DNA from: Stenotrophomonas oahuensis
GTDB lineage: Bacteria; Pseudomonadota; Gammaproteobacteria; Xanthomonadales; Xanthomonadaceae
Assembly: GCF_031834595.1 (NCBI RefSeq)
Contig: NZ_CP115541.1
Coordinates: forward strand, 2,164,501-2,228,500
Direction of reading: 5' to 3'
Length of the DNA: 64,000 nt
Notes under the pieces: generated by a model
The model's database searches: none
Seen by the model: the letters and a program-made list of their open reading frames with translations, nothing else
Told to the model about the DNA's origin: nothing
Shown here: positions 13,577-31,023 of the stretch, piece by piece
Position numbering within the stretch: position 1 is the stretch's first letter
How the letters are laid out: each line of letters starts with the position of its first letter
Position numbers and translations under genes: made by a program

Positions 13577-14716
13577 ATGTCGACGAAGGCTACAAAACAC
13601 AGTGCTCCCGGGCCATACCTAGGATACGGATTGCAGACCGTGCGATTGTGTGCCCGGCTTTTAAATGAGCTTGGTGATTCGACTGTATTCGTAGAGCAAG
13701 ACGATGATATCTCGGTGCTGTACGGCAACGGAAGCAGGCTCCTCGAGCAGACGAAGCGAGTGAAGGGCAATCCTCTATCAGATTGGTCTCTAGACCTTTG
13801 GAAGACTATTCACAACTGGCTTGAAGATCATGCCCCATTCAATGGGATATCCAAGCTATGCCTCTACACCACGTCCGCGCACGAGCCTGGCCCTTTTGCG
13901 AAGGCGCTTCTAGCGGCGCGTAGCTCGCAGGATGTAGATCTGTTGGTGGCTGACATTAATGGAAAGCTAACCACCGCAAAGAAGAAGACAAAAGTATACG
14001 AGTACATCAAGCGGTTCCTCGACGCCACTGCTGAAGAGCAGAAGTCTCTCGCGATTCGATTCGAAGTTATCCAAGAGACGGATGTTCTTGCTTCCATTCG
14101 ATCGCGCTATGAGGCCGCTGTGCCTCCTCCTTTGCTTGAACGTGTCATATCGTTCGCCTTAGGCGAGGCGAAGATTAGATCTGATCGTCTTCTGGAGTTG
14201 GGAAAGCCTGGTGCGCTAAATGCCGGCGAATTTCGAAGTATGGTCAGGCTATTCGTCAAAGAGATAAATCTTCCGGCGTACTTTGACTTTGATTCAGCGC
14301 CGGTGCCTCAGGCTGAGCTGGATAACGAGTTCGTGTCAAGGCCCGTATTTGTAAAGCAGTTGGAGCTGATTGAAGCGAGTAGGCAGCAGCAGCTGCAGGC
14401 AATCAACGACTACTTGAGGGCGGTTGCAAGTAAGACGAGATGGGGGGACGAGGGCACACTTCTTCCTGGGTCATTGGATGAGTGGGAGAATGAGCTGCTT
14501 CAAAGGCATTCCGCCATCTGCGACAGTCTGGACATTCTTCACGCAGGACTTAGCGAAGTGAGTCGCGGTAAGGCTGTCTATGCTGAGTGCAGAAAGGTCG
14601 AGCTCTCACTTCAGGGCAAGAGCGTTCCCGGCCATTTCACTCACGGATGTTTCAACGAGCTCTCTGGATCAAAAAGAATAGGCTGGCATCCTGCCTACCT
14701 AGACCTATTGGAATAA
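13577..14716 (+). CDS. ABC-3C system effector-type protein with nuclease-like N-terminus
   Basis: The 379-residue protein is the first gene of a three-gene ABC-3C operon. Its N-terminus has the DUF4297/Cap4-like PD-(D/E)xK order: G-Y-G-L-Q-T (16-21), F-V-E-Q-D-D-D-I (38-45) and L-L-E-Q-T-K (55-60), with E40, D42-44 and E57/K60 as likely metal and catalytic residues. The C-terminal part (about 230-379) is the ABC-3C partner-binding region ending in H-F-T-H-G-C-F-N-E-L-S-G and W-H-P-A-Y. The prediction that such proteins are nucleic-acid-degrading effectors controlled by an SMC-like ATPase comes from comparative genomics (Krishnan, Burroughs, Iyer and Aravind). Confidence 0.75.
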   Translation: MSTKATKHSAPGPYLGYGLQTVRLCARLLNELGDSTVFVEQDDDISVLYGNGSRLLEQTKRVKGNPLSDWSLDLWKTIHNWLEDHAPFNGISKLCLYTTSAHEPGPFAKALLAARSSQDVDLLVADINGKLTTAKKKTKVYEYIKRFLDATAEEQKSLAIRFEVIQETDVLASIRSRYEAAVPPPLLERVISFALGEAKIRSDRLLELGKPGALNAGEFRSMVRLFVKEINLPAYFDFDSAPVPQAELDNEFVSRPVFVKQLELIEASRQQQLQAINDYLRAVASKTRWGDEGTLLPGSLDEWENELLQRHSAICDSLDILHAGLSEVSRGKAVYAECRKVELSLQGKSVPGHFTHGCFNELSGSKRIGWHPAYLDLLE

Positions 14717-14725
14717 ACCGTGGTC

Positions 14726-15229
14726 ATGACCGACAGAACCAAGCAGAACCCCGGCCGGCTGTCGGGGCTGGACCTGATCTACAATCCGTCGTTGGGCTCA
14801 TTCCTGTTTTGGCGCGCTGCGTCGGGCTACTTCTCGGAGTGCGGGCGCGGACTTCCTGTGGCATTAGCCTTTACCGTACTTCCGATTGCACTCCATGACC
14901 AGTCTAGGAGAGTGCTTTTTGGGACGAAATTGCCTTCTGGTCTAACACTGTTCGCGGCTAAACTCGGGGTTGAACAAGAAAGTTTGCTTGCAATTCACAA
15001 TCGAACACTTGCTCTCCGAAGTCTGTCGTTGGCCTCTCTGACTGCCGGTGTTATGTCTGAGATGTTAATTCTCGATTCGACGAGCGCAACAATCCTGTCA
15101 ATGAGTTCAGCGCCCCCGCAATTGAGTCCAAATATGCAGAAGCTTGGATTGGGGTGCGAAAAGCTGGGCGTCTGGTTCGCACGAATTCCGATCGAGCAGG
15201 TTGCGTCGACTCTTAGGGTGAGCTTCTAA
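14726..15229 (+). CDS. ABC-3C system middle component
   Basis: The 167-residue protein begins (from the ATG at 14726, preferred over GTG 14720) with a polar segment followed by Y-N-P-S-L-G-S-F-L-F-W-R, the N-A/P-x-L/F-G entry motif of ABC-3C middle components. An L-P-I-A-L-H-D-Q-S-R-R block follows, and the C-terminus has K-L-G-x-W-F-A-R. Middle components are thought to bridge the effector and the DUF3732 ATPase. Its stop overlaps the start of the ATPase gene (TAATG), and it lies 9 bp after the effector, so the three form one operon. Confidence 0.75.
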   Translation: MTDRTKQNPGRLSGLDLIYNPSLGSFLFWRAASGYFSECGRGLPVALAFTVLPIALHDQSRRVLFGTKLPSGLTLFAAKLGVEQESLLAIHNRTLALRSLSLASLTAGVMSEMLILDSTSATILSMSSAPPQLSPNMQKLGLGCEKLGVWFARIPIEQVASTLRVSF

Positions 15230-17178
15230 TGTACTTTCAAATCTTAAAGCTGGTTCTTTGGCCTAAGAATGGTGGCGCGATCAGGGAGGTCGTATTCGAG
15301 CCAGGGATGGTCAACGTCATCACAGGTTCTTCAAAAACCGGAAAATCTGCTGTCATCCCGATTATCGACTATTGTTTGGCGTCCAGGAGTTGCACTGTTC
15401 CGGTGGGTGTAATAAGAGATAAATGCTCTTGGTTTGGCGTGGTTGTTGAAACTGTTGAGGGTCAGAAGTTGTTCGCGCGTAGGGAGCCAGGCGATCAAGT
15501 CCAGACAAACGAGATGTTCGTTGTTGAGTCGGAGGAAATTGCTCTCCCCAGCGCAATCGATGGCGGGAATACCAACGCAGGCGTCGTACGTGGACTGTTG
15601 GATCGCCTTGCGGGGCTTACTCAGCTGGATTTTGAACCAGAGACGGAATATGGATACAAACAACGACCGTCCTTCAGAGATCTGACGTCGCTAGTTTTCC
15701 AGCCGCAGAACATTGTTGCGAATCCTAATGTCCTATTCTACAAGGCGGATTCTAATGAGCACCGGGAGAAGCTCAGGACTGTCCTTCCCTACGTTCTGAA
15801 TGCGGTCACCGCCCAGGTCATTGCGTTGCGGCACGAGTCAGACAGACTGAGCCGTAGGATCAAGAGGCTTGAATCTGAACTAAGAGAGATGAACTCCATC
15901 TCCGCAAGACGGATGTCGGAGGGGCGTCGTTGGGTTAATCAAGGGAGGGAGCTGGGGCTATCTACTCGGCGAGGTCAGCTAAATGATTGGCCGGAGATAC
16001 TGGCGGAGCTTCAGCAGATAACACTTGTCAATCATGTTGGAAGGTCTGCATCGGTTGATGGTATAGAGGCGACACTGAGCGTTCTGTCGGAGCTGCGATC
16101 TAGGGAGCAGGAGCTAGCAGCAATGGCTTCCGGACACCGTCAGCGACTCATGGAATTGAAACGATTACGTGAGGGGAGCGATGAATATGCTGGTGCGCTC
16201 CGCATACAGCGTGATCGCATATCACTATCCTCTTGGATGAGTGATGAGATCAAGAGGAGGAACGAGGCAGCTCTGCTGTTCTCTTCTGAAACAGCTTCAT
16301 CGCTTGATAAGCTCTCAAGCGCGCTCAAGGAGGTGGAGGGAAAGCTTCAAGCTTATCCTCTAGCCACGACGTCGTTAGACGCTGAATACCATCGTCAACG
16401 GGTCAGGACTGAAGAGGTGCTTGCTGAGATATCAATCGTGAGGCAGGAGATTCGCTATCATGAAGCTTACTCTGAAGCAGCTCGACAGGAGATCTCCTAT
16501 ACCTCAGCCATCGACCGTTTCTTAGGGGGGCTGCAGCAGCTTCTAGATCAGTACGAGCTATCAGACGCGTCATCAGAGCATGAGATGGAATTATCTGAGC
16601 TGCGTGATAAGCTGAGTACGATTGACAGAAGAATAAACGAGGCTGCGATCCAGCGCAGGCTCGACAGTACTCTGGATGAGATTCAGCAGATAACTGGGTC
16701 AATAATTCCGGCTCTCAATGCAGAATGGGGTGAGAGCCCGGTAAGGCTAGATCCGAAGGAGTTAACGGTTAGGGTGTCTCGTCAGGGGCGTAAAGACTAT
16801 CTTTGGGAAATTGGAAGTGGCGCCAACTGGCTTGCGTACCACGTTGCGGTGACTTTGGCGCTACACACTTACTTCCTCAGCCATCCGCCGAGTCCTGTGC
16901 CGGGGCTAATCGTTTATGACCAACCAAGTCAAGTCTACTTCCCGGCAGTCGTGATTGACAAAAAGACCGGGGAAAAGGACCGGAAGCTGGTGGAGCAGGA
17001 AGATGTTCAGGCAGTTCGGAGCATCTTCGCAGAGATTGGAAATCGCGTTGTGTCTGCAAAGGGGGCGCTGCAAATTATCATCCTCGATCACGCGAATCAG
17101 GATGTTTGGGGGGAGCTCGAAGGCATCTTCCTTGTGGAGGAGTGGCGGGGAAAGAAGCTGGTTCCTTTGGAGTGGTAG
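15229..17178 (+). CDS. DUF3732 SMC/Rad50-like ATPase of the ABC-3C system
   Basis: The 649-residue protein has a Walker A motif G-S-S-K-T-G-K-S-A at residues 33-41 and a Q-loop region near V-F-Q-P-Q-N. A long coiled-coil middle (about 200-480) and a C-terminal head follow, with W-E-I-G-S-G-A-N-W-L-A-Y near 535 (signature-type) and L-I-V-Y-D-Q-P-S-Q near 565 (Walker B region), then I-I-I-L-D-H-A. This architecture defines DUF3732. It probably senses invading nucleic acid or a damaged nucleoprotein structure and licenses the effector. No regulator gene is visible in the operon. Confidence 0.85.
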   Translation: MYFQILKLVLWPKNGGAIREVVFEPGMVNVITGSSKTGKSAVIPIIDYCLASRSCTVPVGVIRDKCSWFGVVVETVEGQKLFARREPGDQVQTNEMFVVESEEIALPSAIDGGNTNAGVVRGLLDRLAGLTQLDFEPETEYGYKQRPSFRDLTSLVFQPQNIVANPNVLFYKADSNEHREKLRTVLPYVLNAVTAQVIALRHESDRLSRRIKRLESELREMNSISARRMSEGRRWVNQGRELGLSTRRGQLNDWPEILAELQQITLVNHVGRSASVDGIEATLSVLSELRSREQELAAMASGHRQRLMELKRLREGSDEYAGALRIQRDRISLSSWMSDEIKRRNEAALLFSSETASSLDKLSSALKEVEGKLQAYPLATTSLDAEYHRQRVRTEEVLAEISIVRQEIRYHEAYSEAARQEISYTSAIDRFLGGLQQLLDQYELSDASSEHEMELSELRDKLSTIDRRINEAAIQRRLDSTLDEIQQITGSIIPALNAEWGESPVRLDPKELTVRVSRQGRKDYLWEIGSGANWLAYHVAVTLALHTYFLSHPPSPVPGLIVYDQPSQVYFPAVVIDKKTGEKDRKLVEQEDVQAVRSIFAEIGNRVVSAKGALQIIILDHANQDVWGELEGIFLVEEWRGKKLVPLEW

Positions 17179-18316: not shown

Positions 18317-18523
18317 GTGCGCACTTTGCTCTGGTACTAAGCCGACCCGCTAGGCGGGTTCGTCTTGAATGAACTGGTAGGTCCCAAAGCGGATTCCAGA
18401 ACTGGCTTGAAACCCTTTGGGAGCAACATGTCTGGTTTTGACTACAGCCGCACCCCGAGTGCATCGAGCGTTGGCGTGGTCATCGTCCCGGTCGCCCGGA
18501 TACCATGAGCCAGTTGGAACATG
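18317..18523. other. Spacer left of the insertion sequence
   Basis: No gene is supported. A small hairpin CCCGCTAGGCGGG lies near 18347. The last bases before the IS (GTTGGAACATG) are the inverted match of those after it (CGTGTTCAAC). Confidence 0.35.
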
Positions 18524-18578
18524 TGTAATGACCCACTGAATTCCTGCTCAGGTGTTACTTTTCCCAAAGGAGACACCG

Positions 18579-18893
18579 ATGAGCGAAATGATGGAAGAAG
18601 AGATCAAGCGCTGGAACGCCCGTCGCAAGTCCGCACTGGTCCTTGAGATCATCCAGGGCAAGACCTCAGTGGCGGCAGCGAGTCGCCAGTTCGACCTGAC
18701 CCCTGCAGAAATCGAGAGCTGGGTTGAAGACGGCAAACGCGGCATGGAGAACGCCCTGAGAGCCAAGCCTGAGGACGTGCGCGAGCAGTACGAGCGCCAG
18801 TTGAAGGACCTCCAGGAAACCTACGGCGAGGCCATGCTGGAGATCCGCGCGCGAAAAAAGCTGGCATCCCTGCTGGGAAAGGACGAGAGCTGA
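18579..18893 (+). CDS. IS3-family transposase OrfA
   Basis: The 104-residue protein has an N-terminal helix-turn-helix (W-N-A-R-R-K-S-A-L-V-L-E-I-I-Q-G-K-T, then A-A-A-S-R-Q-F-D-L-T) and a C-terminal leucine-rich helix, as in IS3 OrfA DNA-binding subunits. AAAAAAG at 18854-18860 lies in phase for -1 slippage. The -1 frame after it is open through G-I-P-A-G-K-G-R-E-L into OrfB, so an OrfAB fusion transposase can be made. The stop also overlaps the OrfB ATG (TGATG). Confidence 0.92.
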   Translation: MSEMMEEEIKRWNARRKSALVLEIIQGKTSVAAASRQFDLTPAEIESWVEDGKRGMENALRAKPEDVREQYERQLKDLQETYGEAMLEIRARKKLASLLGKDES

Positions 18894-19717
18894 TGCTCTC
18901 GGTCCAGCAGGGCCTGAGGGACGAAGGCGTCACGGTGCCAATGACCAAGCTGTGTCAGTGGTTCGGCGTGGCGCGTCGAACGACGTACTACAAGCCGACC
19001 AAGGGCCCGGCCAAGGTCAATGCTGAGCTGGCAGAGCCCATCAAGGAAATGATCGAGGCCGAGCCCTCGTTCGGCTATCGCACCGTGGCGGCGCTGCTGG
19101 GCATGAACAAGAACACTGTGCAGCGGATCTTTCAGCTCAAGGGTTGGCAGGTCCGTAAGCGTCCGCTCGGTCAGCGCCCGCGAATCGAAGCCAAGGTTTC
19201 CCGCGCTGAAGGGCCTGATCAGCGTTGGGCTACGGACCTGTGCAGGGTCTGGGGCGGCAGGGACGGCTGGTTGAGCCTGGCGCTGGTGATCGACTGCGGC
19301 ACACGTCAGTTGCTTGGCTGGCACCTGCCTCGAACTGGCAAGGCAAGTACCGCCTCCGCCGCGCTGGAGCAGGCCCTGATCACCCGCTACGGCACGCTGG
19401 GGCGGGTGCCGGTGCCCTTCCTGCTGCGTTCTGACAACGGCCTGGTGTTCACCAGCCGCGTCTATACGCGCCTGGTGCGCAGCTATGGTCTGCAGCAGGA
19501 GTTCATTACGCCACACTGCCCGCAGCAGAACGGGATGGTGGAACGCGTCATTCGAACGCTGAAGGAGCAATGTGTGCACCGGCACCGCTTTGAGAGCCAA
19601 GTGCACGCCACAAGGGTGATCGCTGACTGGATTGCCTTCTACAACCAACAGCGCCCTCATCAGGCGCTGAAGATGATGACCCCGGACGCGGCGTATGCCG
19701 CTACATTAACCGCATGA
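18893..19717 (+). CDS. IS3-family transposase OrfB (DDE recombinase)
   Basis: The 274-residue protein has an HTH_21 segment (Y-K-P-T, F-G-Y-R-T-V) and an rve integrase core with all three acidic residues in place: D in W-A-T-D-L-C, D in R-S-D-N-G-L, and E in N-G-M-V-E-R-V, plus the closing Y-N-x-x-R-P-H-Q-A-L. The frame is intact, so the element may still be active. It is produced by frameshift or by re-initiation at the overlapping ATG. Confidence 0.93.
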   Translation: MLSVQQGLRDEGVTVPMTKLCQWFGVARRTTYYKPTKGPAKVNAELAEPIKEMIEAEPSFGYRTVAALLGMNKNTVQRIFQLKGWQVRKRPLGQRPRIEAKVSRAEGPDQRWATDLCRVWGGRDGWLSLALVIDCGTRQLLGWHLPRTGKASTASAALEQALITRYGTLGRVPVPFLLRSDNGLVFTSRVYTRLVRSYGLQQEFITPHCPQQNGMVERVIRTLKEQCVHRHRFESQVHATRVIADWIAFYNQQRPHQALKMMTPDAAYAATLTA

Positions 19718-19751
19718 CCTGAGCAGGAATTCAGTGGGTCATTACACGTGT

Positions 19752-20489
19752 TCAACGGGGCAGTATGCTATTGAGCTGTCCGCGCACATTGCAGCCGTAC
19801 TCTTCTCTTAGCAAAAGCGCCTTGTGCCCAACTCGACTTCGAAGGATATCAAGTTCTTGCCGCTGCGTGCTTGAGTACCGGCTAGTGTGATTCATGTACT
19901 CCCGGCACACATCGTAGAGATCCTTGATCACGTCTTTGAGGTTGGTGTCATATCGAATTTTCTGGCGAAGCTTCGACAGATCCTTCCGGAGGCGCTCAAT
20001 GGAGAGCGAGACATGATGGGATACTTCCAGATGATGATCAACGAAGAGAGCCCCGTGCATCTCCAAAAGGTCAACCACATCCTGGGCAATTTGCCCTTCT
20101 TCAGTAAACCTTCTGAGCAGCGGTACCGGGCTGCGGTGGGAGTGAAGAAGTGATCTGATCAAGTCCTCGTGGGTCCTCTTCCATGCAGTTAACATAGTAA
20201 CTGGAAAGTCGGCACCATTGTTCTTGTCAACCAGGGTGTGGCAGCTTGCACAAAGCCAAATTCCATTCTCTACGCTTGCTCTGGCCTCATCTGACATCAG
20301 ATGGTCATAGCGAGCTTCCCCCTCCTTCTTTGCGGAAATATGGGCCGCCTCACCAATCTTCAGCTTCAAAGGCCCTTTCCCGTCTGAAGGGCCTGTCGTG
20401 ATTGTCTGACATCTAGGATTGTTGCAGATCAGGCCGGATCGGAAGGCCAATGTATCGATTGTTTGCTTTGCAAAGTCTGGGGCAGCCAC
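19752..20489 (-). CDS. HNH endonuclease-domain protein
   Basis: The 245-residue protein has an N-terminal zinc-type HNH domain: C-N-N-P-R-C (first Cys pair), G-E-A-A-H-I-S-A (catalytic His), N-G-I-W-L-C-A-S-C-H-T-L-V-D (Asn, second Cys pair and His), within residues 22-90. The C-terminal 140 residues are helical, with a coiled-coil-like part (L-S-I-E-R-L-R-K-D-L-S-K-L) of unknown role, perhaps a sensor. The gene ends 6 bp from the IS end, so the IS insertion may have cut its downstream region. Likely a DNA nuclease of the defence island; no partner is evident. Confidence 0.75.
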   Translation of the reverse strand: MAAPDFAKQTIDTLAFRSGLICNNPRCQTITTGPSDGKGPLKLKIGEAAHISAKKEGEARYDHLMSDEARASVENGIWLCASCHTLVDKNNGADFPVTMLTAWKRTHEDLIRSLLHSHRSPVPLLRRFTEEGQIAQDVVDLLEMHGALFVDHHLEVSHHVSLSIERLRKDLSKLRQKIRYDTNLKDVIKDLYDVCREYMNHTSRYSSTQRQELDILRSRVGHKALLLREEYGCNVRGQLNSILPR

Positions 20490-21407: not shown

Positions 21408-21731
21408 CTACGGCAATACGTCCACGATGATGGCCCCAGCCGACGTACGCGTTATCGTGACCTTGTCGCCCTCCGTGGCCGCATCCATAACCGCATTGGT
21501 CTGGAAGTAAAGCCTGTACTCGCTACGCGTAGGGTGGGCCTCCCGGGAGTCGTACCAAGTAATGCCCGCATGGGCCACAATGGAGCCGTTGCTATATCGG
21601 AACTCGGCAGTGCCACGAAACTCTTCGATTCCGAAGATCTTCTTGAACTGAGAGACCCCATTCAGCTCATGCTGGTTGGATGCCAGTGGGCTCGCCTCTA
21701 CTGCAGACAGGGTCTTGGATACGCTAATCAT
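21408..21731 (-). CDS. Stand-alone EcoRII-N-like (B3-type DNA-binding) domain protein
   Basis: The 107-residue protein resembles the N-terminal effector-DNA-binding domain of EcoRII. It has S-K-T-L-S-A near residue 5 (EcoRII: K-R-L-S-A-N-D-T), then S-N-Q-H-E-L-N-G-V, then I-T-W-Y-D-S-R-E-A-H-P-T-R-S-E-Y-R-L (EcoRII: Y-Y-N-S-R-H-F-G-K-T-R-N-E-K-R-I), and a closing beta segment. No catalytic part is attached. It is divergent from the GHKL-ATPase operon, 193 bp apart, and near an EcoRII-type nuclease gene. I infer recognition of the same or a related DNA site, as a controller or targeting subunit; unproven. Confidence 0.6.
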   Translation of the reverse strand: MISVSKTLSAVEASPLASNQHELNGVSQFKKIFGIEEFRGTAEFRYSNGSIVAHAGITWYDSREAHPTRSEYRLYFQTNAVMDAATEGDKVTITRTSAGAIIVDVLP

Positions 21732-21924
21732 AATCTTCCCGATTGTGGTCCAGTATTTGGCTCAGCCCTTCTAGGCTGGAGCTGTCCATGCAAACATCGG
21801 AGCACTTGACGTCAAAGAATTGACACAAGGCCGCTGCGACAAAAGGTATTGCCAACCCTCATTGCATACTGATATCAATAGCGAAAAGGAAGCGGCCGCG
21901 CAAGAGAACGGAATGGAGACCGGA

Positions 21925-23829
21925 ATGGCACAGTGGCAGTTCAGAGCGCTCAACCCGAACGAGAACTCGGGTTCCAGCATATCCGACGACAACTTCTCAA
22001 TTGAGGAGAGGACAAACGTCGAGATTCTCGTACGAGAAACGCTACAAAACCCGCTTGACGCACGTGCGAGCTCCGACGACACGGTCCGGGTCAGCTATCG
22101 CATTGTTGAGATCGACGCAGATGCTGGGCAGACAGTGCGCTCCCTGTTCTCAGAAGGCTGGCTTAGCCACGCTCGAGCCGGTCAGCTTCTTACGGACAAG
22201 CTTGCGCCAGTGCTTCGCTTCTTGCTCATTGAAGACTTCGGTACCACGGGGCTGGAGGGGGCCTACACGGACTCCTCAGTTGATGGCGAGAGCGAAAACT
22301 GGAATGCATTCTGGTTCCGGGAAGGTGAGGGGGCCAAGCATGCCAGGGCCAACGGAGGTGCCGGGCAGGGCAAAATCACTCTCTACCTTGCAAGCAAAGT
22401 GAGGACAGTGGTCGCGCTGACGAACCGTCTATCGGATGGCAGGGCGCTGCTATTCGGTTGCAGCCGGTTCCCGCGGAACTACAGGCTTGGTGACGAGAAG
22501 ACGCGTTGGGCAAAGGAGGCGCGTTGGGGGCGGGAGTCGGACCAACAGAGCTTGGCCGTGCCGATTAGCGATGCCTCATTCATAGAGTCAATCAAAAGTG
22601 AGCTGGGACTGCGCAGAGGGGATGCGCCTGGGACGAGCTTCATCGTGCCCTTGCCCTTGGACAATCTCACAGAGCAGGACATCAAGACTGCTGTCATCAA
22701 TGAGTTCTTCTTCGCAATCTGTCGGGGGCGACTGGAGGTTGAGGTTGGAGGTGCGCTTCTTGAGAAGTCAACGATTGTCTCGGAGGCTGATGGACTTCCA
22801 GATGGCGGTCGGGTAAGCCAAGACTACCGCCAGTTCCTTCAGGCTGCCGCAGAGCGGAGCGGTCTTGTGCCCTTGGCAAATGCAAAGGCCACGTGGGTGA
22901 AGGGCATGGATTCCGCCTCCTTTGACGAGGGTGATCTGTTTAACTTGACGCACGGATTTGAGCTCGGACAGCCAGTTTCGGTCGACTTCCCGTTGACAAT
23001 CAAAGCGAAGCGTGGCGCCACTTACGCGACCAAGTTCAGGGTACATCTGCAGCTCGCAGACAGCCTCGATAGAAGTGAGGAGCTGTTCGTTCGCCAGGAT
23101 CTGGCAATTGACGGCGAGAAGAAACTCAGATCCGTTCGTTCGGGGGATCCGGTGATGGCCTTGACCTTCATCGATGATCCCCGGCTTTCCGACCTGCTGG
23201 TCTGCGCCGAAGAACCCACACACAGAACGTGGAATGCACAGCGACCAAAGGTGAAGAATGCATACCAAGCCCCGGGCGCTGCGCTCTCAGCTGTTAGAAA
23301 CGCGGCGGCAAAGCTTGTCCAGCTACTCGCCCCCGCTGGTCAGCGCGATGAGACCGCTTTGGCTGCGTACTTCGCGGATCCCGCGCATCTCTTGGAGCTG
23401 AAGAAGGGTGCGAGGGGTAAGAAGGAAGGCAGCAAGCCCGGTCCGCCTCCAGTGGACGAAGTTCCCGTTGCGAAGCCAAAGCCAGTGGTGGTTACGCCGC
23501 AGCGCGATGGGTTTACTGTTTCAGTTTCCCCCAATCAAGATGGAGGCTTCCAGCGATTGGAATGCTCAGTGGAGCTTGCCTACGCAACGGTGCGAGGTGA
23601 CCCGTTCCGTCAGTGGGATTCTGCCGACTTCTGGTTGGAAGACGCGTCTGCATTTCCAATCGAACTCACGGGCGTGTCAAATCTTCGTCGCGAAGGGAAT
23701 AGGCTTCGGTTCGACATGGATCGAGAGGGGGCGGCATTGGCAGTTCGCGGGTTCGACCACGAGCGACAGCTCGAGATTCGTCTGAAGTACACGGAGGTGG
23801 CAGATGAAGCAGATATCACGTCGTACTAA
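21925..23829 (+). CDS. GHKL (HSP90/MutL/MORC-like) ATPase of a restriction cluster
   Basis: From the ATG at 21925 (GGAG six bases upstream; 21913 is an alternative) the protein has 634 residues. It shows the Bergerat ATP-binding motifs: N-box V-R-E-T-L-Q-N-P-L-D-A-R (36-47), L-I-E-D-F-G-T-T-G-L-E-G near 101-112 (D-x-G-x-G-type) and N-G-G-A-G-Q-G-K near 150. The unusual N-P-L-D keeps the Asn, and a Lys/Pro-rich linker (about 510-545) precedes a beta-rich C-terminal domain. GHKL ATPases linked to restriction-modification genes, with Vsr, were described as relatives of eukaryotic MORC (Iyer, Abhiman and Aravind). It leads an operon of three overlapping genes. Confidence 0.75.
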   Translation: MAQWQFRALNPNENSGSSISDDNFSIEERTNVEILVRETLQNPLDARASSDDTVRVSYRIVEIDADAGQTVRSLFSEGWLSHARAGQLLTDKLAPVLRFLLIEDFGTTGLEGAYTDSSVDGESENWNAFWFREGEGAKHARANGGAGQGKITLYLASKVRTVVALTNRLSDGRALLFGCSRFPRNYRLGDEKTRWAKEARWGRESDQQSLAVPISDASFIESIKSELGLRRGDAPGTSFIVPLPLDNLTEQDIKTAVINEFFFAICRGRLEVEVGGALLEKSTIVSEADGLPDGGRVSQDYRQFLQAAAERSGLVPLANAKATWVKGMDSASFDEGDLFNLTHGFELGQPVSVDFPLTIKAKRGATYATKFRVHLQLADSLDRSEELFVRQDLAIDGEKKLRSVRSGDPVMALTFIDDPRLSDLLVCAEEPTHRTWNAQRPKVKNAYQAPGAALSAVRNAAAKLVQLLAPAGQRDETALAAYFADPAHLLELKKGARGKKEGSKPGPPPVDEVPVAKPKPVVVTPQRDGFTVSVSPNQDGGFQRLECSVELAYATVRGDPFRQWDSADFWLEDASAFPIELTGVSNLRREGNRLRFDMDREGAALAVRGFDHERQLEIRLKYTEVADEADITSY

Positions 23830-24583
23830 TCCCACCGGGCTACATGAGGTCGATCGAAAGAACTTCTGTGTGCGCGTTGCGGATGACGAAAAGCTGGGGC
23901 GTGTGTTCTGGTTGGAGAGCTTTGACCAGAAGGCCGCTGGCGTATCGACTGACACTCAGATCCACTGCATAGCCAGTGCTGGCACCACCGAGCAGTATTT
24001 CTCGCTTGGTGATGCCGGGAGCTACGTGCGAACGCAGCAGGCAATCAATGAGTTGGCTCGAGATAAACCGCTGAAGTTTCGTTTTGTGTTTAACCAGCCT
24101 GGCCAGAACCGTCTATGTGCGTTCGCCGATGGAGTTCGCCCTACGGACGAATCAGAGGATCTCGGATCAAGTCTGGTGGATATCCTTCCTGCCGAGCTGG
24201 GTGGGCCGATCTGGACGCTTGAGCTGCCTGCAAACAGCGCTGATGCAGATTCCAAGCCGTGCATTCTTGTTGAGCAGCGTGTCTATAGAACCGCGGGTGC
24301 CGCTGTGAGAAGTCACGCGTTCACAGCGTTCGTTATGCCGGAGGTCATGAGGCAGGTGGCGCTTTGCATTGCGCAGAACCCCGCAGAACTTGAGAGTGAA
24401 GATTCTTGGGTTGGAAGATGGAAGGGTTTCATCGAGCACCTCGGTGCGGGACATCCTCCGGAAGAGGACGAGGGGGACCCAGCTGAATGGGCAGATTCGG
24501 TAACCAAGAGATTCTGTACAGTCGGGCATATGAGAGCCCAGTTGGACAACCTCATTGCTGAGATGACGGGAGAGCTAGAGTGA
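23804..24583 (+). CDS. Unrecognised protein co-translated with the GHKL ATPase
   Basis: The 259-residue protein starts inside the end of the ATPase gene (26-bp overlap, GGAGGTGG upstream of the ATG). It has a beta-rich N-terminal half (about 1-170, with F-W-L-E-S-F-D and W-T-L-E-L-P) and an acidic helical C-terminal tail containing G-H-P-P-E-E-D-E-G-D-P-A-E-W. I do not recognise the family. Tight overlap with both neighbours argues for a stoichiometric complex with the ATPase and the DUF6339 protein. Confidence 0.6.
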   Translation: MKQISRRTNPTGLHEVDRKNFCVRVADDEKLGRVFWLESFDQKAAGVSTDTQIHCIASAGTTEQYFSLGDAGSYVRTQQAINELARDKPLKFRFVFNQPGQNRLCAFADGVRPTDESEDLGSSLVDILPAELGGPIWTLELPANSADADSKPCILVEQRVYRTAGAAVRSHAFTAFVMPEVMRQVALCIAQNPAELESEDSWVGRWKGFIEHLGAGHPPEEDEGDPAEWADSVTKRFCTVGHMRAQLDNLIAEMTGELE

Positions 24584-25314
24584 GTACACTGGTGCGGTCA
24601 CTCAACGAAGGCGGCATCGCTCGGTTCATGGATTGGCTAGAATCTCCCGTCGGTCCGCCACCCCGGAGCATCTTGGAAGACGACAGCTACGGCTCTGTTC
24701 TTTGTGAGGACTGGTACGTCGATGTCGATGCGAAGTTTGGCAGTACGTATGAACTTGGTTGCTACCTGAACGAAATTTTCGGGTCCGGTGCTGACAGGCT
24801 CGCATTACGCGCGGACAAGGGAATGTGGGCATGGATGTCGTTGGCATTCATGCCAAATCTGCTGGGCCGTGAACGTCAGAGAAAGGCGCTCCCGCTGGCA
24901 AAACATCACTACGTCGAGATCGTCCCGCGCTTGGCATACCGTCTGATCACCAGGGCCGCATGGGAACTGGTGTTCCTTCATGGCGACAAAGCCCGAGTCG
25001 CGCTAAGCTCCACGCGGTCGCCATGGGGCGATGTCGCCGAACAGATGACTGCAAGGCAGGAGATGTATTCTCACCCGAGCTTCTGGGCCGTAGCGGAGGC
25101 GTTGTACTTGAGTGCATCTGGACGACAGAAGCCGGGAGCAGCTGCGGCCAGGAAGGCCGTGCATCGAAAGCTTCGCGGAAACGAGGTTGGCTTGGGCGGC
25201 GTCAGGCGCTTGGCTATCAGCTTCGGACAGTTTGAGCGCACCTACCTACTTCGCAGCATGAGCGCCAGCGATGTTGTAGGGATACTTCCCGTTGAGTACT
25301 CCAAGTGGAAGTAG
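24580..25314 (+). CDS. DUF6339 family protein
   Basis: The 244-residue protein starts with GTG overlapping the previous stop. It has the DUF6339-type features I recall: K-G-M-W-A-W-M-S-L-A-F in the middle, a Y-R-L-I-T-R-A-A-W-E-L-V-F-L-H-G stretch, a M-T-A-R-Q-E segment, and the C-terminal signature I-L-P-V-E-Y-S-K-W. Members occur in restriction and defence clusters; no activity is known to me. It is the last gene of the GHKL operon and converges on the EcoRII-type nuclease gene with 40 bp between. Confidence 0.65.
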   Translation: MSTLVRSLNEGGIARFMDWLESPVGPPPRSILEDDSYGSVLCEDWYVDVDAKFGSTYELGCYLNEIFGSGADRLALRADKGMWAWMSLAFMPNLLGRERQRKALPLAKHHYVEIVPRLAYRLITRAAWELVFLHGDKARVALSSTRSPWGDVAEQMTARQEMYSHPSFWAVAEALYLSASGRQKPGAAAARKAVHRKLRGNEVGLGGVRRLAISFGQFERTYLLRSMSASDVVGILPVEYSKWK

Positions 25315-25354
25315 GGGGAGGGAGTGGTGAGCCAGGCCTTTACCTGTGAGCGTA

Positions 25355-26761
25355 CTATTGCTTCAAGGACTTCCTGACTCGCGTTCTGGGGCGTCGCTGT
25401 CGGGCGAGAATCATGCCTGATTCGAGCAGCAAGTTGGGCCGCATGACTGCGATGGCGTCATCGAAGAATGAACGGAACGAAATGACGTTGCTATCGTTGC
25501 GATACAGCGACTCGGTCTTCACCGCTTTCATGGATTCGGGGACAACCAGTGTAATCTCGGCTTCACGAAGCTCGTTCAAGGTTTCCACTGAGATGCGGTC
25601 ATCGACAGTTGCCAGGAAGATCGAGCAGTTGAATCGCTCATGAGTGATCTGCTTCCAGCGTTCGCGCAGGGTTGTTTTGGCCGATAGGATCGCTGCAGCA
25701 TAGTAGTCTTTGCGGTCAGCGTCTCTGACAGTCCTTGCATCCGGCATTACAAAGTCTGGCCTTCGCTGTCCCAAGATCGCTTGGGGTTGGGATCTGACGC
25801 CACCGGCACGCAGCAGATAATCCAAGTGGCTCTCGAAGGATCTGCCACCTCTGCTCTTTCGTTGTTGGCTGGCAGAGAGGAAGGCCGCGTCTAGCGCCCG
25901 AAATCCTTGTACAGCTGCGGACGCGGCCGACTTGTGTTTGGCAAGAATGGCGGCCACCTCTACCGCTCGCAGCCTTAGCTCATGCTGCCTGTAGACTGCG
26001 TACTCGATGTCCCTGCTGATTCTCATCACCGCATCTCCAGGGCGTTCAAGCTCCCAAGGATTCAGGTCTCCGTAGCCCATTGTCTTGAGATGCATGTTGC
26101 GCGCTTGTTTGGATAGCTGCTCAGGACTTGGTAGCCTGGAGTACTTCAGCAGAAGGCTCTCAATCGTGCCAGCAAGAAGTGCTGCTTGGATCTCTGCCTC
26201 TAGCTGTGCCGCCTCTTCGGACTGATCCTTGCTTGCAGACGAGAGAGCTGCTGGGTCAAAGAGTCCGAAATGGAAGTCGGAGCTTACATCAAGTCGTGTT
26301 TCGAGGAGCTCGGCGGCGGCGGATTGGGAATCAATCACCATGAACCAGTGATGTGCGAGACCTTCTGGTGCAACCAACGTCCCGCCAAGCAGCCACGATG
26401 CAGGGTTCAGGAGCTGGAAGAGCTCCTTTGGGATCCGAGTGAAATGGCACTCGGATGTCTTGTTAGTGAAATACCTGATATGAGAATCATCCCTCACGGT
26501 ATCTGCTTGTGGCCAATAGGAGGGGCACTTCGCTTCCTCAATGTGCGGCAGATCTTTGCGTGGTTCTAGCGCGGGGAAGAATCTCGACTCTCGAATGTCC
26601 CGGGGAACATAGAATCCGCTCTGGTTGGATCCTCCCGGCATGGACCAAGACGTGTCGTTGCGCGAAAGCTTCTTCAGAAAGATCTTTCGGCTCTTCAGGG
26701 CGAGCTCCTCGACCATCTTCCAGTCTGTTTGCTTTCCTTCCGAGACGATATCAGTCTTCAT
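25355..26761 (-). CDS. EcoRII-like type II restriction endonuclease
   Basis: The 468-residue protein has both EcoRII domains. The N-terminal effector domain begins I-F-L-K-K-L-S-R-N-D-T (27-37; EcoRII has Y-I-K-R-L-S-A-N-D-T). The C-terminal PD-(D/E)xK domain runs from about 305, with S-R-G-G-R-S-F-E-S-H-L, R-R-P-D-F-V-M-P and S-A-K-T-T-L-R-E-R-W-K-Q; E310, D336 and K362 match the EcoRII catalytic set. EcoRII needs a second site bound by the N-domain to cut CCWGG; specificity here is not readable from sequence. The start at 26759-26761 overlaps the Vsr gene end by 11 bp. Confidence 0.85.
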   Translation of the reverse strand: MKTDIVSEGKQTDWKMVEELALKSRKIFLKKLSRNDTSWSMPGGSNQSGFYVPRDIRESRFFPALEPRKDLPHIEEAKCPSYWPQADTVRDDSHIRYFTNKTSECHFTRIPKELFQLLNPASWLLGGTLVAPEGLAHHWFMVIDSQSAAAELLETRLDVSSDFHFGLFDPAALSSASKDQSEEAAQLEAEIQAALLAGTIESLLLKYSRLPSPEQLSKQARNMHLKTMGYGDLNPWELERPGDAVMRISRDIEYAVYRQHELRLRAVEVAAILAKHKSAASAAVQGFRALDAAFLSASQQRKSRGGRSFESHLDYLLRAGGVRSQPQAILGQRRPDFVMPDARTVRDADRKDYYAAAILSAKTTLRERWKQITHERFNCSIFLATVDDRISVETLNELREAEITLVVPESMKAVKTESLYRNDSNVISFRSFFDDAIAVMRPNLLLESGMILARQRRPRTRVRKSLKQ

Positions 26762-27200
26762 TGTTGGTCCATGGTGTGCGGTCGACAATTGACGCCGCGA
26801 GTTCGTCAAAAACTGCGGTTTTCATCGCTTCGCTTGCATTCCGAAGTGAGCACTCCCAGATAGTGAGTACGCGCCATCCTGAAACCCTCAGTTCATGCTC
26901 CACTCGAGCATCCCGTTCCCGGTTCCGGCTTATCTTGTCAGCCCAGAAATCCGGACGCGTCTTGGGCAGACGATACAGCGGGCAGCTATGCCCATGCCAG
27001 AAGCAGCCATGAACAAATACGACCGTTCGGTACTTGGGAAGAACGATGTCCGGGCGCCCAGGCAAACCAGCTCCACCCAGCCTATAGCGAAATCCACGCG
27101 AATGGAGAGCCTTCCGGACCAGGACCTCCAGCTTTGTGTTGGCGCCACGGATCCGCGACATCTGCGCGGACCGTTGCTCGGGTGTGAGACTGTCAACCAA
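26751..27200 (-). CDS. vsr: Very short patch repair endonuclease Vsr
   Basis: The 149-residue protein has the full Vsr signature: M-S-R-I-R-G-A-N-T-K-L-E, G-F-R-Y-R-L, L-P-G-R-P-D-I-V-L-P-K-Y-R, F-V-H-G-C-F-W-H-G-H-x-C and W-R-V-L-T-I-W-E-C. Vsr nicks T:G mismatches left when 5-methylcytosine deaminates, protecting sites of the neighbouring methylase. The likely start is TTG (27198-27200), 2 bp after the methylase stop. Order methylase-vsr-nuclease means the protective functions are translated first. Confidence 0.92.
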   Translation of the reverse strand: MVDSLTPEQRSAQMSRIRGANTKLEVLVRKALHSRGFRYRLGGAGLPGRPDIVLPKYRTVVFVHGCFWHGHSCPLYRLPKTRPDFWADKISRNRERDARVEHELRVSGWRVLTIWECSLRNASEAMKTAVFDELAASIVDRTPWTNNED

Positions 27201-27202
27201 GG

Positions 27203-28453
27203 TTAGGTCTTTGCCTTCTTCACGACGGTCTTTCGCGGTCTTTTGGAAGCGTCATTCATCAAGTAGGGCATCATGATTCTCGCCACCTCGCTGATGACGG
27301 GAACGACCACCGAGTTGCCAAATTGCTTGTAGGCGCGAGTGTCAGACACCGGGATGCGGAAGTTCTCGTCGAACCCCATCAGGCGCGCGCATTCGCGCGG
27401 CGTCAGTCGGCGGGGATTTTTCTTAAGGCCTTGAGAGATGAGAATCTCCGAGCCATCCTTGTAGTACCGCGCCGAAAGTGTACGGCAAGTACTCTCGCTG
27501 TTCACCAGCCCGAAGCCGAAGCCGTTGCCCTTGTCGCGGTGCTTTGCGGCGTAGTTCTGCAGGTATTCCCACAGCTTGTCCGAAAGCGTGTACTTGTCCA
27601 GCACCTTGCCCTTGGGGCCCTCGATGTATGGAGAGTCAGCAGCTTCGGTGCCATCTTGGCTGTGCAGGACTGCGCCCATCTTCGGAGCCTCATCGAAGCT
27701 CGGCAGCTCGACCTTATGGATGTCAAAGTCGTTAGGCTCGCGGAAGCCCACGATGATGATGCGCTCCCGGTGTTGCGGTCCGAAGTGCTTGCCGTTGATG
27801 ACCTTGTGCCTAACCTGGTAGCCGAGCTCGTTCTGCAGCACATCGATGATGGTGGAGAACGTGCGGCCCTTGTCGTGGCTCATCAGGTTCTTCACGTTCT
27901 CCAGCAGAAACGCGCGCGGCTTCTTTTCGGCGATGATGCGCGCGACGTCGAAGAAGAGGGTGCCTTGCGTCTTGTCGGAGAACCCATGCGGCCGGCCCAG
28001 CGCGTTCTTCTTCGACACGCCAGCAATGGAGAACGGCTGGCAGGGGAAGCCGGCCAGCAGCACGTCGTGGTCCGGAACGTCTGCTTCGTGAACCTTGGTG
28101 ATATCGGTGGCGAAGGTGTGCCCCGGGCCATCGTGGAAGTTGGCCTTATACGTCTTTACGGCGTAGGGGTCCCATTCGCTGGTGAACACGCAGCGGCCAC
28201 CCTGCTTTTCGAAAGCGGTGCGGATGCCGCCGATGCCGGCAAACAGGTCAATGAAGCGGAACTTGCCTTCCCCGGTCGGCGGCTCGCCGAAGGGCAGCAG
28301 GCGCTGGCGGATGGCATCCGCGATGTAGGGCTTGGGCTCCGTCTCGCGGACCTGCCAGCGCTTTACGGTTTTCGGATCAACTCCAAGGGCTTGGGCGACC
28401 TCCTTCGCGGAAAAGCGCTGGAGGGAAAGGTCGATCAGCTCGTACGTATTCAT
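27203..28453 (-). CDS. dcm: DNA (cytosine-5) methyltransferase, Dcm/EcoRII type, with N-terminal HTH
   Basis: The 416-residue protein starts at 28451-28453 after a GGAG. Residues 1-50 carry a small helix-turn-helix ([18 protein letters not shown]), also typical of EcoRII-type methylases. All m5C motifs follow: [19 protein letters not shown] (catalytic Cys), [14 protein letters not shown] and [10 protein letters not shown]. The HTH may allow autoregulation. It methylates the host sites to protect them from the neighbouring nuclease. Confidence 0.93.
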
Positions 28454-28651
28454 GGGTGCTCCGGGTATTCGTTGGACAGTATGTCCAATTTCGTCCCGTG
28501 GGTGAAGGGGGGCAATCAGCACCCCCCTTGATCAGGCGTCGGAAACGTCAGCTACCAAGGGCAGGCAATTGGCTACATGACCGCAGCGTGCCAGCCGTAC
28601 GTCTCATTGACTGAGATATCCGGCTGGCAATGTTCTGCCCGAGCAACGCTC

Positions 28652-30763
28652 TCAGCTGACTTCTTCAGCCCGTTGGCCGGCGGGTTGGTTGTCCTTCCAT
28701 GCGCCATACGTGATGCTGCTTCCTTGGACCCGCCAAGTCGTCCGTCCATTGTCCGCCCGGCCCACCACCACGGCGGACGCAGCACTCGGACTGGAGAAGT
28801 CGGCATCCTTCATGAACACGAGGTGGGTGCCGTCGGCAGACGCTGACAGGGCCCCGGTGCTCTGAAGCTCGACCCGCAGCTGCTCGTAAGCATGGTTCTT
28901 ACCTGTCCAATTCAGTCTTGCCTGCGAACCCTTCAAGATCGTGAATCTGTCCGGATGTTGCTTTGCCTGAGCGGTGATCCCAATACGCCGGCTGGCAATC
29001 TCAAACACGATGGAGCTTGGGTCGACTTCCAGAAGGCGCAGCAGTTCCTTGCTCAACTCTTCCTTGCTACGGCGGTCCTGCAAGCGCCAGTGGGATTCAA
29101 GCAGGCCGACCATTCTGGCCTGACGTTTCTCCAGCACGTCGAGCGTCCAGTCGGCATGCTGAAGTACCTCGGTCGTAAGGGCGAACGCTGAGGTTCCACC
29201 CTTGGTGAAGTAGCTTGACTTCTTCCACCCGAAATCTCGATTGCTGGCAGAGCTGTTCTTCTTCCTGCTGAGCAGTGCGAGGTTGCCCAGTCGGTGAACC
29301 CAGCGCTGGTGGTCAGCCTTGTCGGGCATCCACGCTGCCCAACTGCTGTTGGGTGCAGGCTGCTGTGGCATGACATGCTCGACCGAAACAACGTCGTGCT
29401 GATATGTCGCGGAGGCATCCGACATGATCCTGTCGAGTCGCAGCAGCAGCAACGCCAGAGCGCGCGAGGAATGGGTGTCGTACATCGCGCCGTCCAGCGC
29501 CATGTAGGCAAGATGCTGCTCTTCGGCAGACAGCTGCAGCGGAGAGGAGCTGTCGAAGAGGTCCATTTCCGATTCGATCGCCGAAGTCAGTGCGGAGAAC
29601 CGTTCGATACGGCCATTGGGACCGATCCTCCGGATCAGCATCGAGTAACTGAGCCGCTCCAGGTCGCGGAAGAATTCGAGCACCAGGCTTGGGTCGTTAC
29701 GGTGCAGTACGAAGAACCGCAGAGCGGGCGGAACCCAGTCGTTGAACTCCAGTCGATTCAGCCACGTCAGGTGTTCATTGACCTTCTCGGCATGCTGGGT
29801 GCTCGTGTACACCGCATCTCGCAGTTCCGAGAATGCTTCAGCCATGGGGATTATGACCTCATCGACTAGTTGGCGAGGCTGGTGCGACGGAATCACGTGC
29901 TCGTTGAACTCCTTGAGAAGAGTTCCATGAGGTTTGGATTTTCGGTAGACCATGCGGATGTGGCTGAAGAGATCACCGAACTCGCTTCGGCCCAAATCCT
30001 CTTCCTTGCTCTCCCACTTCTGCGTATAATCGTCGCGCAGGGATTCGTCGACCTTACCGATGATGTCTGCTTTCAGAATGTCGGTCGCGCTCAGGTCGAG
30101 TCCGCGGCTGTTGAGAACTCCGAAGATGCGATACGCGGAGTCCAAATCCGGGGTGGCTACAGTGACCAGATAGCAGCGCGTGATGATGAACTGGACCAGT
30201 CGAACAAGATCGGGCTGCGACAGTTTCAACAGTTCCGCCATGAACACCTGTGCGTTGGAACGCAGCCGGTCCTGCGCATCGGGGAGCTTGGCGGTCAGAG
30301 AAACCAGCTGGCTCAAGCCATCCTCATGCTGCACATACGTGCGGAAGAACTCCCGGTCTCTATCCCGTAAAGACAGGCGATAAGAGGCCTGCGTTGCCTT
30401 TACAACGCTGCCTTTCTCGTAAATGCAGCCGGTGATCTCGTTCTGGACAGCTGCGTCGCCCACCGTCGCCCGGATGGCGGAGAGCAACAGGGTCAACGTA
30501 GTCAGACGTTGTTGCCCGTCCACAACGGTGGCTTCGGTCGACGATTCCGGCTTGATGAGAACGATGCTTCCCAGGAAGTATGGCGTTGAATCGCCAAGGT
30601 TCGGGGGTGCAAGCGCCAGGGCCGTGGTCAGGTCGCTGATAAGCTCGTTGGCCTGTTCGGTTCCCCATGAGTAGGGGCGCTGATACCCGGGAATCTGAAA
30701 AACGTAGTCAGCGCTGAAGATGCGGGCGAGCGACTGTTCTTTGGCGGTCAGTGTGTGCGACAT
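28652..30763 (-). CDS. GmrSD-type DUF262/DUF1524 nuclease with C-terminal DUF4357
   Basis: From the ATG at 30761-30763 the protein has 703 residues. The N-terminal DUF262 domain shows I-P-x-Y-Q-R-P-Y-S-W (25-34) and V-V-D-G-Q-Q-R-L-T-T-L near 88 (the NTP-binding DGQQR). The middle DUF1524 domain has E-H-V-M-P-Q ... H-R-L-G-N-L-A-L-L ... N-x-x-x-S-N-R-D-F, the His-Me nuclease. The last 60 residues match DUF4357 (S-P-S-A-A-S-A-V-V-V-G). GmrSD proteins restrict phage with glucosylated hydroxymethylcytosine DNA; the exact target here is unknown. It is a single-gene system at the right edge of the island. Confidence 0.87.
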   Translation of the reverse strand: MSHTLTAKEQSLARIFSADYVFQIPGYQRPYSWGTEQANELISDLTTALALAPPNLGDSTPYFLGSIVLIKPESSTEATVVDGQQRLTTLTLLLSAIRATVGDAAVQNEITGCIYEKGSVVKATQASYRLSLRDRDREFFRTYVQHEDGLSQLVSLTAKLPDAQDRLRSNAQVFMAELLKLSQPDLVRLVQFIITRCYLVTVATPDLDSAYRIFGVLNSRGLDLSATDILKADIIGKVDESLRDDYTQKWESKEEDLGRSEFGDLFSHIRMVYRKSKPHGTLLKEFNEHVIPSHQPRQLVDEVIIPMAEAFSELRDAVYTSTQHAEKVNEHLTWLNRLEFNDWVPPALRFFVLHRNDPSLVLEFFRDLERLSYSMLIRRIGPNGRIERFSALTSAIESEMDLFDSSSPLQLSAEEQHLAYMALDGAMYDTHSSRALALLLLRLDRIMSDASATYQHDVVSVEHVMPQQPAPNSSWAAWMPDKADHQRWVHRLGNLALLSRKKNSSASNRDFGWKKSSYFTKGGTSAFALTTEVLQHADWTLDVLEKRQARMVGLLESHWRLQDRRSKEELSKELLRLLEVDPSSIVFEIASRRIGITAQAKQHPDRFTILKGSQARLNWTGKNHAYEQLRVELQSTGALSASADGTHLVFMKDADFSSPSAASAVVVGRADNGRTTWRVQGSSITYGAWKDNQPAGQRAEEVS

Positions 30764-31023
30764 GGGTTTGGGGAGTCGAGGTCTGGCGAGGATGAGCTGC
30801 CCCGAAATCGACGCGTCCCGGATCTGAGAGTGCAATTGCGCACCCGCAGGACCGGGTCTGGGGAGAGGCGTCGTTCAGAGCTGCGGCTGAGCCGGGGCGG
30901 AAGCCCCGATTAGCGGCTTGGCCAATGGATGCTGTGTCTGATGCGGACGCCTCCCTGTGCGCTGTAGATCCTTCTCGTAGTCAGAGTATGCCGTAGACGC
31001 CACTGGGTGGCGCAATCGGACCC

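Follow-up and report, generated by a model that had tools for sequence, protein, structure and literature searches.

The stretch analysed here, 64,000 nucleotides of the genome of Stenotrophomonas oahuensis (contig NZ_CP115541.1, positions 2,164,501 to 2,228,500 of the forward strand; "the window" in the following), carries a minus-strand set of genes for a Dcm-type C5 cytosine methyltransferase, a Vsr endonuclease and an EcoRII-type restriction endonuclease, which converges on three plus-strand genes encoding a GHKL ATPase, a middle protein of 259 amino acids (aa) and a protein of 244 aa (D244). The three plus-strand genes, here called the triad, were collinear in every further locus of the sample, mostly stood beside a C5 methylase but not beside an EcoRII-type nuclease, changed their methylase partners repeatedly and share a methylase slot with the MZA cassette; therefore, the triad appears to be a portable effector module linked to methylation and not a gate for the EcoRII-type nuclease. 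Together with a small, loose and putatively DNA-reading domain (mini107, 107 aa), which is encoded divergently from the ATPase in the window, it appears to represent a type of virus defence that has hardly been studied. GHKL ATPases in restriction-modification (R-M) loci are already known (excerpted text of PMC2292703), as an earlier sequence-only reading of this DNA had stated, and no description of this triad was found in searches of the open-licence literature. The same reading had described the convergence of the methylase, Vsr and nuclease genes on a three-gene operon, which was confirmed by gene calls and by Pfam and TIGR matches, all genes being intact; the "fused" cluster it spoke of amounts to adjacency. 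Coordinates of all features are given in Table 1.

The triad was followed in 26 loci besides the window: 13 of the 14 loci from a scan of genome contigs, four from a search of the family, five from a search of the class and four from a search of the phylum with a D244 profile. Left out of the counts were L015, L022-L026 and L033, in which the match covers just a portion of the ATPase (L022-L026 and L033 were viewed over only ~1.5 kb to each side), L016-L021, L028-L032 and L034-L036, which are shorter extracts of loci that were counted in full, and L038 and L039, which are the same loci as L006 and L004 (L and G numbers denote loci and genomes). The order ATPase, middle protein, D244 on one strand was found in 26/26 loci, with overlaps or intergenic gaps of at most 55 nucleotides in all of them except the decayed L074. 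In the window the ATPase gene overlaps the gene of the middle protein by 26 nucleotides and the latter overlaps the D244 gene by 4, and therefore the three look like one operon. A C5 methylase was present within 2.1 kb of the triad in 22 of the 26 loci and Vsr in 21 (as a fragment only in L074, split over two frames in L010), but an EcoRII-C nuclease in 8. A plasmid locus of Rhizobium leguminosarum (L136), found later and outside the 26, also combines the triad with a C5 methylase. In L074 (8971-10979) the ATPase is reduced to its C-terminal part and a Vsr fragment overlaps on the other strand. A gene of ~75 aa, f6, lies directly before the triad ATPase in L003 (9731-9955) and 12 further loci; it had no convincing family match and was not seen in the window.

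The 22 triad-linked methylases split cleanly into two classes. Nine of them (class a) are 55-86% identical to the Dcm of the window, and 13 (class b) have ~500-600 aa and are 43-100% identical to the enzyme of L008, the one class-b member scanned with PADLOC, where its top model was DrmMII. An EcoRII-type nuclease accompanied 8/9 class-a but 0/13 class-b methylases (Fisher p=2.8e-5). Within 6 kb of the 14 nuclease-free loci (the 13 of class b and L073), no other gene was common to more than three loci. On the ATPase tree, which was calculated without L074 because that locus has no ATPase core, there are 8 changes in the class of the methylase partner, of which well-supported branches force at least 7, and partner class is no more clustered than shuffled labels. 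The tree carries a long-branch warning for L072 with L073; a second tree without these two gave the same change counts.

Class-b methylases were found in 9 of 369 gammaproteobacterial genomes. Five of them lie beside MzaB-MzaE (L085-L089), one beside the triad (G285) and one beside a sister triad with a true DUF6339 protein, where the methylase adjoins the last two genes of that triad at the contig end (L084). The other two were left unassigned: G463 was not fetched, and G373 (locus L090) has a partial class-b gene and, separately, a Dcm-type methylase with a window-type nuclease, neither the triad nor the MZA cassette being seen. PADLOC and Pfam identified the four Mza genes of L085, the four of L089 and two of L086; the others were assigned with profiles built from L085 and L089. 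Like the triad, the MZA cassette is headed by a GHKL protein and has the class-b methylase as its neighbour; 4/5 of these MZA loci also contain Vsr. MZA has a place in PADLOC and was reportedly tested as a defence system by Gao et al. in 2020. Both cassettes occupy the class-b methylase slot, and we infer that they do comparable jobs. These data set a reusable GHKL module apart from its incidental neighbour, the restriction enzyme, and show that the slot of the module is shared with the MZA cassette.

The ATPase of the window, which starts at 21913 or 21925, had no match to a Pfam GHKL family at E<=1; a Cloacin match below cut-off was the only one, and none exceeded a curated cut-off. The PADLOC model PDC-M33A, by contrast, matched residues 36-340 of its open reading frame (ORF), and the protein contains the Bergerat motifs of such ATPases (E-x3-N-x2-D, EDFGT and GGAGQGK) as well as ExxxH. 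In an alignment of 26 rows covering these motifs (the window and 25 loci), E-x3-N-x2-D-A and ED-[FY]-[GN]-T were kept in all rows, as was ExxxH at residues 429-433; motif III is glycine-rich but variable. At least 374 homologues were found among the best 7995 candidates scored, and the best 120 of the 374 were listed. Model and motifs thus bear out the call of a GHKL ATPase made by the sequence-only reading. The excerpted text of Iyer 2008 (PMC2292703) names as the hallmark of paraMORC2 an ExxxH motif, which lies C-terminally within the S5-fold domain that follows the GHKL domain, and by its GHKL motifs and ExxxH the triad ATPase is paraMORC2-like.

The two other triad proteins were modelled. 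D244 is predicted to be mostly helical, with a predicted local distance difference test (pLDDT) of 90 and a predicted template modelling score (pTM) of 0.87, and its model had no match of note in the PDB. The middle protein (pLDDT 89, pTM 0.61) is predicted to consist of a beta-sandwich, where structure matches covered residues 12-114, and a helical part. Family searches of both proteins found no nuclease domain; the family of the middle protein matches no PADLOC model and that of D244 gave only two stray matches (E 0.011 and 0.035). The 244-aa protein had been labelled DUF6339, but this label was rejected: PF19866 had no match at E<=1 in D244 and 20 relatives and none in a scan of the whole genome of the window, and comparison of the D244 profile with true DUF6339 proteins was negative. 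True DUF6339 proteins (E 1e-38 to 1e-49, over cut-off) were present in 3/4 other genomes asked, as the third gene of a sister triad GHKL/middle/DUF6339, which in L105 and L106 directly adjoins a window-type EcoRII nuclease. The sister triad has the gene order and the kinds of partners of the window triad and a homologous ATPase (hhalign E=8.9e-8), but its third protein is DUF6339 and not D244, and its middle protein is only doubtfully related (probability 8%). Probably, the arrangement rather than the family had been recognised.

The small gene divergent from the ATPase had been read as a detached EcoRII-N-like domain. That it is a real, divergent gene is supported by 83 small homologues and by a locus of Stenotrophomonas maltophilia (L002), where a protein of 65% identity is likewise divergent from the same ATPase. 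The kinship to EcoRII-N, a domain with a B3-like DNA-binding fold, was not seen directly: PF09217 matched 0/22 mini107 members at E<=10, and a PDB sequence search with mini107 showed none. From end to end, the mini107 profile aligned with one protein that is annotated as a stand-alone EcoRII-N (P=1e-4 at a probability of 58%, compared with P 0.22-0.74 in four controls), and comparison with the N-terminal domains of window-type nucleases gave a weak or absent signal (P=0.013 and, in another comparison, P=0.18). In 21 fetched loci, however, the domain forms the N-terminus of an EcoRII-C nuclease of 403-433 aa, two of which matched Pfam EcoRII-C with E=1.8e-69 and 7.5e-67. Position and the one profile alignment therefore lend indirect support to a kinship of mini107 to EcoRII-N, namely to the domain with which the nucleases of a second EcoRII-C group begin. 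Mini107 does not look like the missing piece of the nuclease in the window, since that enzyme keeps its own N-terminal part with a weak EcoRII-N signal. Several NCBI "type II restriction endonuclease" proteins of ~110-150 aa seem to be detached recognition domains that lack a catalytic part, and their annotation would have to be corrected.

The contexts of mini107 were examined in 8/10 other genomes (G316 and G321 not counted), 14/14 viral loci (L119, whose mini ORF is cut by the contig end, was dropped from the counts) and 7/30 plasmid records; the search profiles could miss other kinds of ATPase, and a number of the viral contigs stop after a few kb. A GHKL ATPase was found beside 6/9 unfused domains (window, L002, L110, L111, L118 and L132) versus 4/21 fused ones (L043, L046, L112 and L135; p=0.03), a count of loose domains which is small and partly chosen via GHKL, the window being the starting point and L002 having been found through its ATPase. 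In L111 and L132 the unfused domain lies within a protein of 237-240 aa at the end of MZA operons, and the ATPases of L110, L111, L118 and L132 are MORC/MzaB-like. Three further arrangements were observed. On a Moritella plasmid (L134 5119-6952), a stand-alone mini107 relative directly follows the gene of a nuclease of the MvaI/BcnI family, whose members cut CCWGG or CCSGG. An IMG/VR contig (L118 4640-11203) encodes a stand-alone relative, a second small EcoRII-N-like ORF, a MORC-type GHKL protein, a C5 methylase and Vsr. In L112 (9177-13964) and L135 (8974-13759), an operon of helicase, stand-alone EcoRII-N protein, GHKL and HNH faces Dcm, Vsr and a nuclease carrying the mini107 domain; these loci resemble the window in combining a GHKL protein, a loose EcoRII-N-type protein and a Dcm-Vsr-nuclease set but differ in the kind of GHKL protein and N-domain and in having a helicase and HNH.

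We therefore propose, at what we judge to be even chances, that this is a C5-methylation-linked defence locus in which two exchangeable parts share one methyltransferase and Vsr, and in which the triad is an ATP-dependent anti-phage effector in an MZA-type slot. Methylase and Vsr would provide the shared self-mark and its repair, and the EcoRII-type nuclease and the triad would be two effectors reading the same mark. A dimer of the ATPase would close around DNA upon ATP binding, the middle protein may link it to D244 or to a site reader, and the complex would be set off by DNA without the host C5 mark. In the window, mini107 might read unmodified sites and supply recognition to the triad; its role as a site reader is plausible but unproven. 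Several observations weigh against this proposal. The triad proteins have no recognised nuclease motif, and none of them has a known activity. Methylase was not seen at L044, L045, L073 and L074, of which L074 is decayed and L073 intact, and the contigs of L044 and L045 end 45 and 1465 bases past the triad. Methylase/nuclease sets of the same kind occur in L104 and L107 with no ATPase seen nearby. Stand-alone mini107 was found beside the triad only in the window and L002, in L043 and L046 the mini domain is part of the nuclease, and none was seen in the other 23 of the 26 loci, so that mini107 cannot be a general subunit of the triad; in 13/26 loci the place before the ATPase is taken by f6, which is different from mini107. 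Without the window and L002, the GHKL association of loose mini domains falls to 4/7 versus 4/21 (p=0.14) and is suggestive only.

Alternatively, the triad itself could be a restriction machine without a nuclease of a known family: DNA that lacks the C5 mark would be attacked by Vsr, recruited by the MutL-like ATPase, or by D244 as a nuclease with a new fold, and the small readers would be exchangeable (mini107 here, f6 elsewhere). As the 13 class-b loci show no other conserved candidate within 6 kb, Vsr or D244 would have to cut. We regard this as unlikely; if true, Vsr would act as a nuclease in restriction in addition to its part in repair. An abortive or toxic back-up, silent while the site is methylated and harming the cell once methylation is lost or the nuclease is blocked, would fit the single methylase that serves nuclease and triad in the same locus and the AIPR (abortive infection) protein of the slot-sharing MZA cassette, but no toxin-like domain was found and neither D244 nor the middle protein matches any family convincingly, which leaves this explanation rather improbable as well. 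Vsr in 21/26 triad loci and the parallel to MutL and Vsr drawn in Iyer 2008 (excerpted text of PMC2292703) speak for a repair role, in which the MutL-like ATPase and Vsr would jointly keep mutations at 5-methylcytosine low, just as Vsr of E. coli is assisted by MutL. This we consider quite doubtful, since Vsr is also found with C5 methylases where the triad is absent, no Vsr was seen in L011 and L013 despite their triad and methylase, and the class-b methylase has the MZA cassette as another partner.

The sequence-only reading had suggested yet another function: ATPase and loose N-domain would form a clamp for counting or scanning sites, through which the EcoRII-type nuclease next to them is gated. 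EcoRII indeed needs extra sites bound by its N-domain (excerpted text of PMC4081073). A nuclease of the window type was found in 12/242 genomes of the family, excluding 5/17 genomes with weak matches (E 1e-11 to 1e-18) and counting G183 and G056, which have a TGA inside the nuclease, as found. Five of the 12 have the triad (G000, G055, G089, G220 and G232), two the sister triad (L105 and L106) and one a different GHKL protein (L103, by eye from motifs); in four no ATPase was seen nearby (L104 and L107, and L108 and L109 with a broken nuclease). Triad genomes G091 and G137 have no nuclease near the triad. Nuclease and triad thus co-occur strongly in the family, in 5/12 nuclease genomes versus 2/230 others (p=2.4e-6, assuming an identical set of genomes in both searches), and this speaks for a connection of some sort. 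But 7/12 nuclease genomes lack the triad, so the nuclease does not need it, though ATPases of some kind are common beside the nuclease. Conversely, 18/26 further triad loci show no EcoRII-type nuclease, the operon being found mostly without such genes, an outcome that the sequence-only reading had itself named as a refutation; partner switching on the ATPase tree shows no dependence, and the nuclease seems to possess its own EcoRII-N-type part, judging by a PF09217 match below cut-off and a weak alignment with the N-part of 1na6. Gating is not supported, and we consider it quite doubtful as well. Chance neighbourhood in a defence island, suggested by the several unrelated defence genes of the window, is highly improbable and already disfavoured, given the methylase linkage in 22/26 loci of varied origin, the repeated re-pairing and an ATPase tree that does not show the 26 loci as recent copies of one island.

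The GC (guanine plus cytosine) content of the window is 51-61% from 10 to 31 kb, compared with 63-68% in the first 10 kb, and this and nearby Lamassu-type and GmrSD-type genes point to a defence island. LmuA, LmuC and LmuB genes lie in a row, and the GmrSD-type gene adjoins the methylase end of the cluster. An insertion sequence and an HNH protein, which resembles PDC-M68A of PADLOC and endonuclease effectors such as SAVED-HNH, were also present. The methylase has a possible helix-turn-helix at its N-terminus, with Pfam matches below cut-off. The nuclease ORF opens at a TTG at 26809, and its likely start is the ATG at 26761, inside the end of vsr.

Table 1 Features of the window and of related loci (positions refer to the window unless a locus is named)
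Feature	Position	Strand	Basis or remark
Lamassu-type genes	13577-17178		LmuA E=2.9e-44, LmuC E=7e-5 (weak), LmuB E=3.5e-120
Insertion sequence	18517-19753		37-base-pair inverted ends (97% complementary) flanking two transposase-like ORFs (by eye)
HNH protein	19752-20489		
mini107, stand-alone EcoRII-N-type domain, 107 aa	21408-21731	minus	divergent from ATPase; 83 homologues
GHKL ATPase, 634 aa, paraMORC2-like	21925-23829	plus	motifs; PADLOC PDC-M33A E=4.6e-26
Middle protein, 259 aa	23804-24583	plus	no known family; predicted beta-sandwich (immunoglobulin/fibronectin type III-like) and helical C-terminal part
D244, 244 aa	24580-25314	plus	mostly helical (predicted); no known family; no PDB fold match
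EcoRII-type restriction endonuclease	25355-26761	minus	PF09019 E=6.6e-22; PF09217 E=0.0016; PDB 1na6 E=2.3e-20
Vsr endonuclease	26751-27200	minus	PF03852 E=1.5e-32; TIGR00632 over cut-off
Dcm-type C5 cytosine methyltransferase	27203-28522	minus	PF00145 E=2.9e-87; TIGR00675 over cut-off
GmrSD-type (DUF262/HNH) protein	28652-30835		C-terminal DUF4357; top PADLOC model Orf5
Sister triad	L105 11354-14791; L106 5570-9022; L084 11-1572; L116		beside same kinds of methylase, Vsr and nuclease
Fused mini domain	L043, L046, L066-L070, L112, L120-L130, L133, L135		N-terminal on EcoRII-C nuclease
Stand-alone mini domain (<160 aa)	window, L002, L065, L110, L118, L131, L134		

Compared with known systems, the nuclease of the window resembles the Type IIE enzyme EcoRII by its EcoRII-C domain, in which PDF, KTT and RW stretches align, including residues that are presumably catalytic; this likeness is seen in the sequence, and the window enzyme differs by a very diverged N-domain and by the additional effector module adjoining it. 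CCWGG counts were slightly under Markov expectation, which is not informative on specificity. In the excerpted text of Bellieny-Rabelo 2021 (PMC8011034), the GHKL gene of the HEF_HK/Response_reg_2 system is likewise described in linkage with C5 methylase, Vsr and EcoRII-C, but the window proteins match neither HEF_HK nor Response_reg_2, the ATPase having no match to HEF_HK (PF19191) at E<=1. For VcSduA, a Shedu protein with an N-terminal GHKL part, the excerpted text of PMC12137116 reports that the ATPase is essential for anti-phage activity, that variants in ATP hydrolysis or in the nuclease both abolished activity, and that the ATPase is hypothesised to control the nuclease; VcSduA is a single protein fused to a DUF4263 nuclease, whereas the triad is a three-gene operon, known here from its genes. 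The paraMORC2 R-M loci of Iyer 2008 (PMC2292703, in the excerpted text) share with the triad the GHKL motifs, ExxxH after the ATPase core and an adjoining C5 methylase and Vsr. There, MORC and paraMORC families are linked to superfamily II helicases and paraMORC2 is placed mainly in cyanobacteria and Gram-positives; the triad, in contrast, was found in Pseudomonadota, has two proteins of no known family in set order and no helicase, as no superfamily II helicase matched among the 10 proteins of window 19.7-30.8 kb. With three proteins and a methylase, it offers a small system in which the proposal of 2008, that MORC-like ATPases loop DNA in R-M, could be tested.

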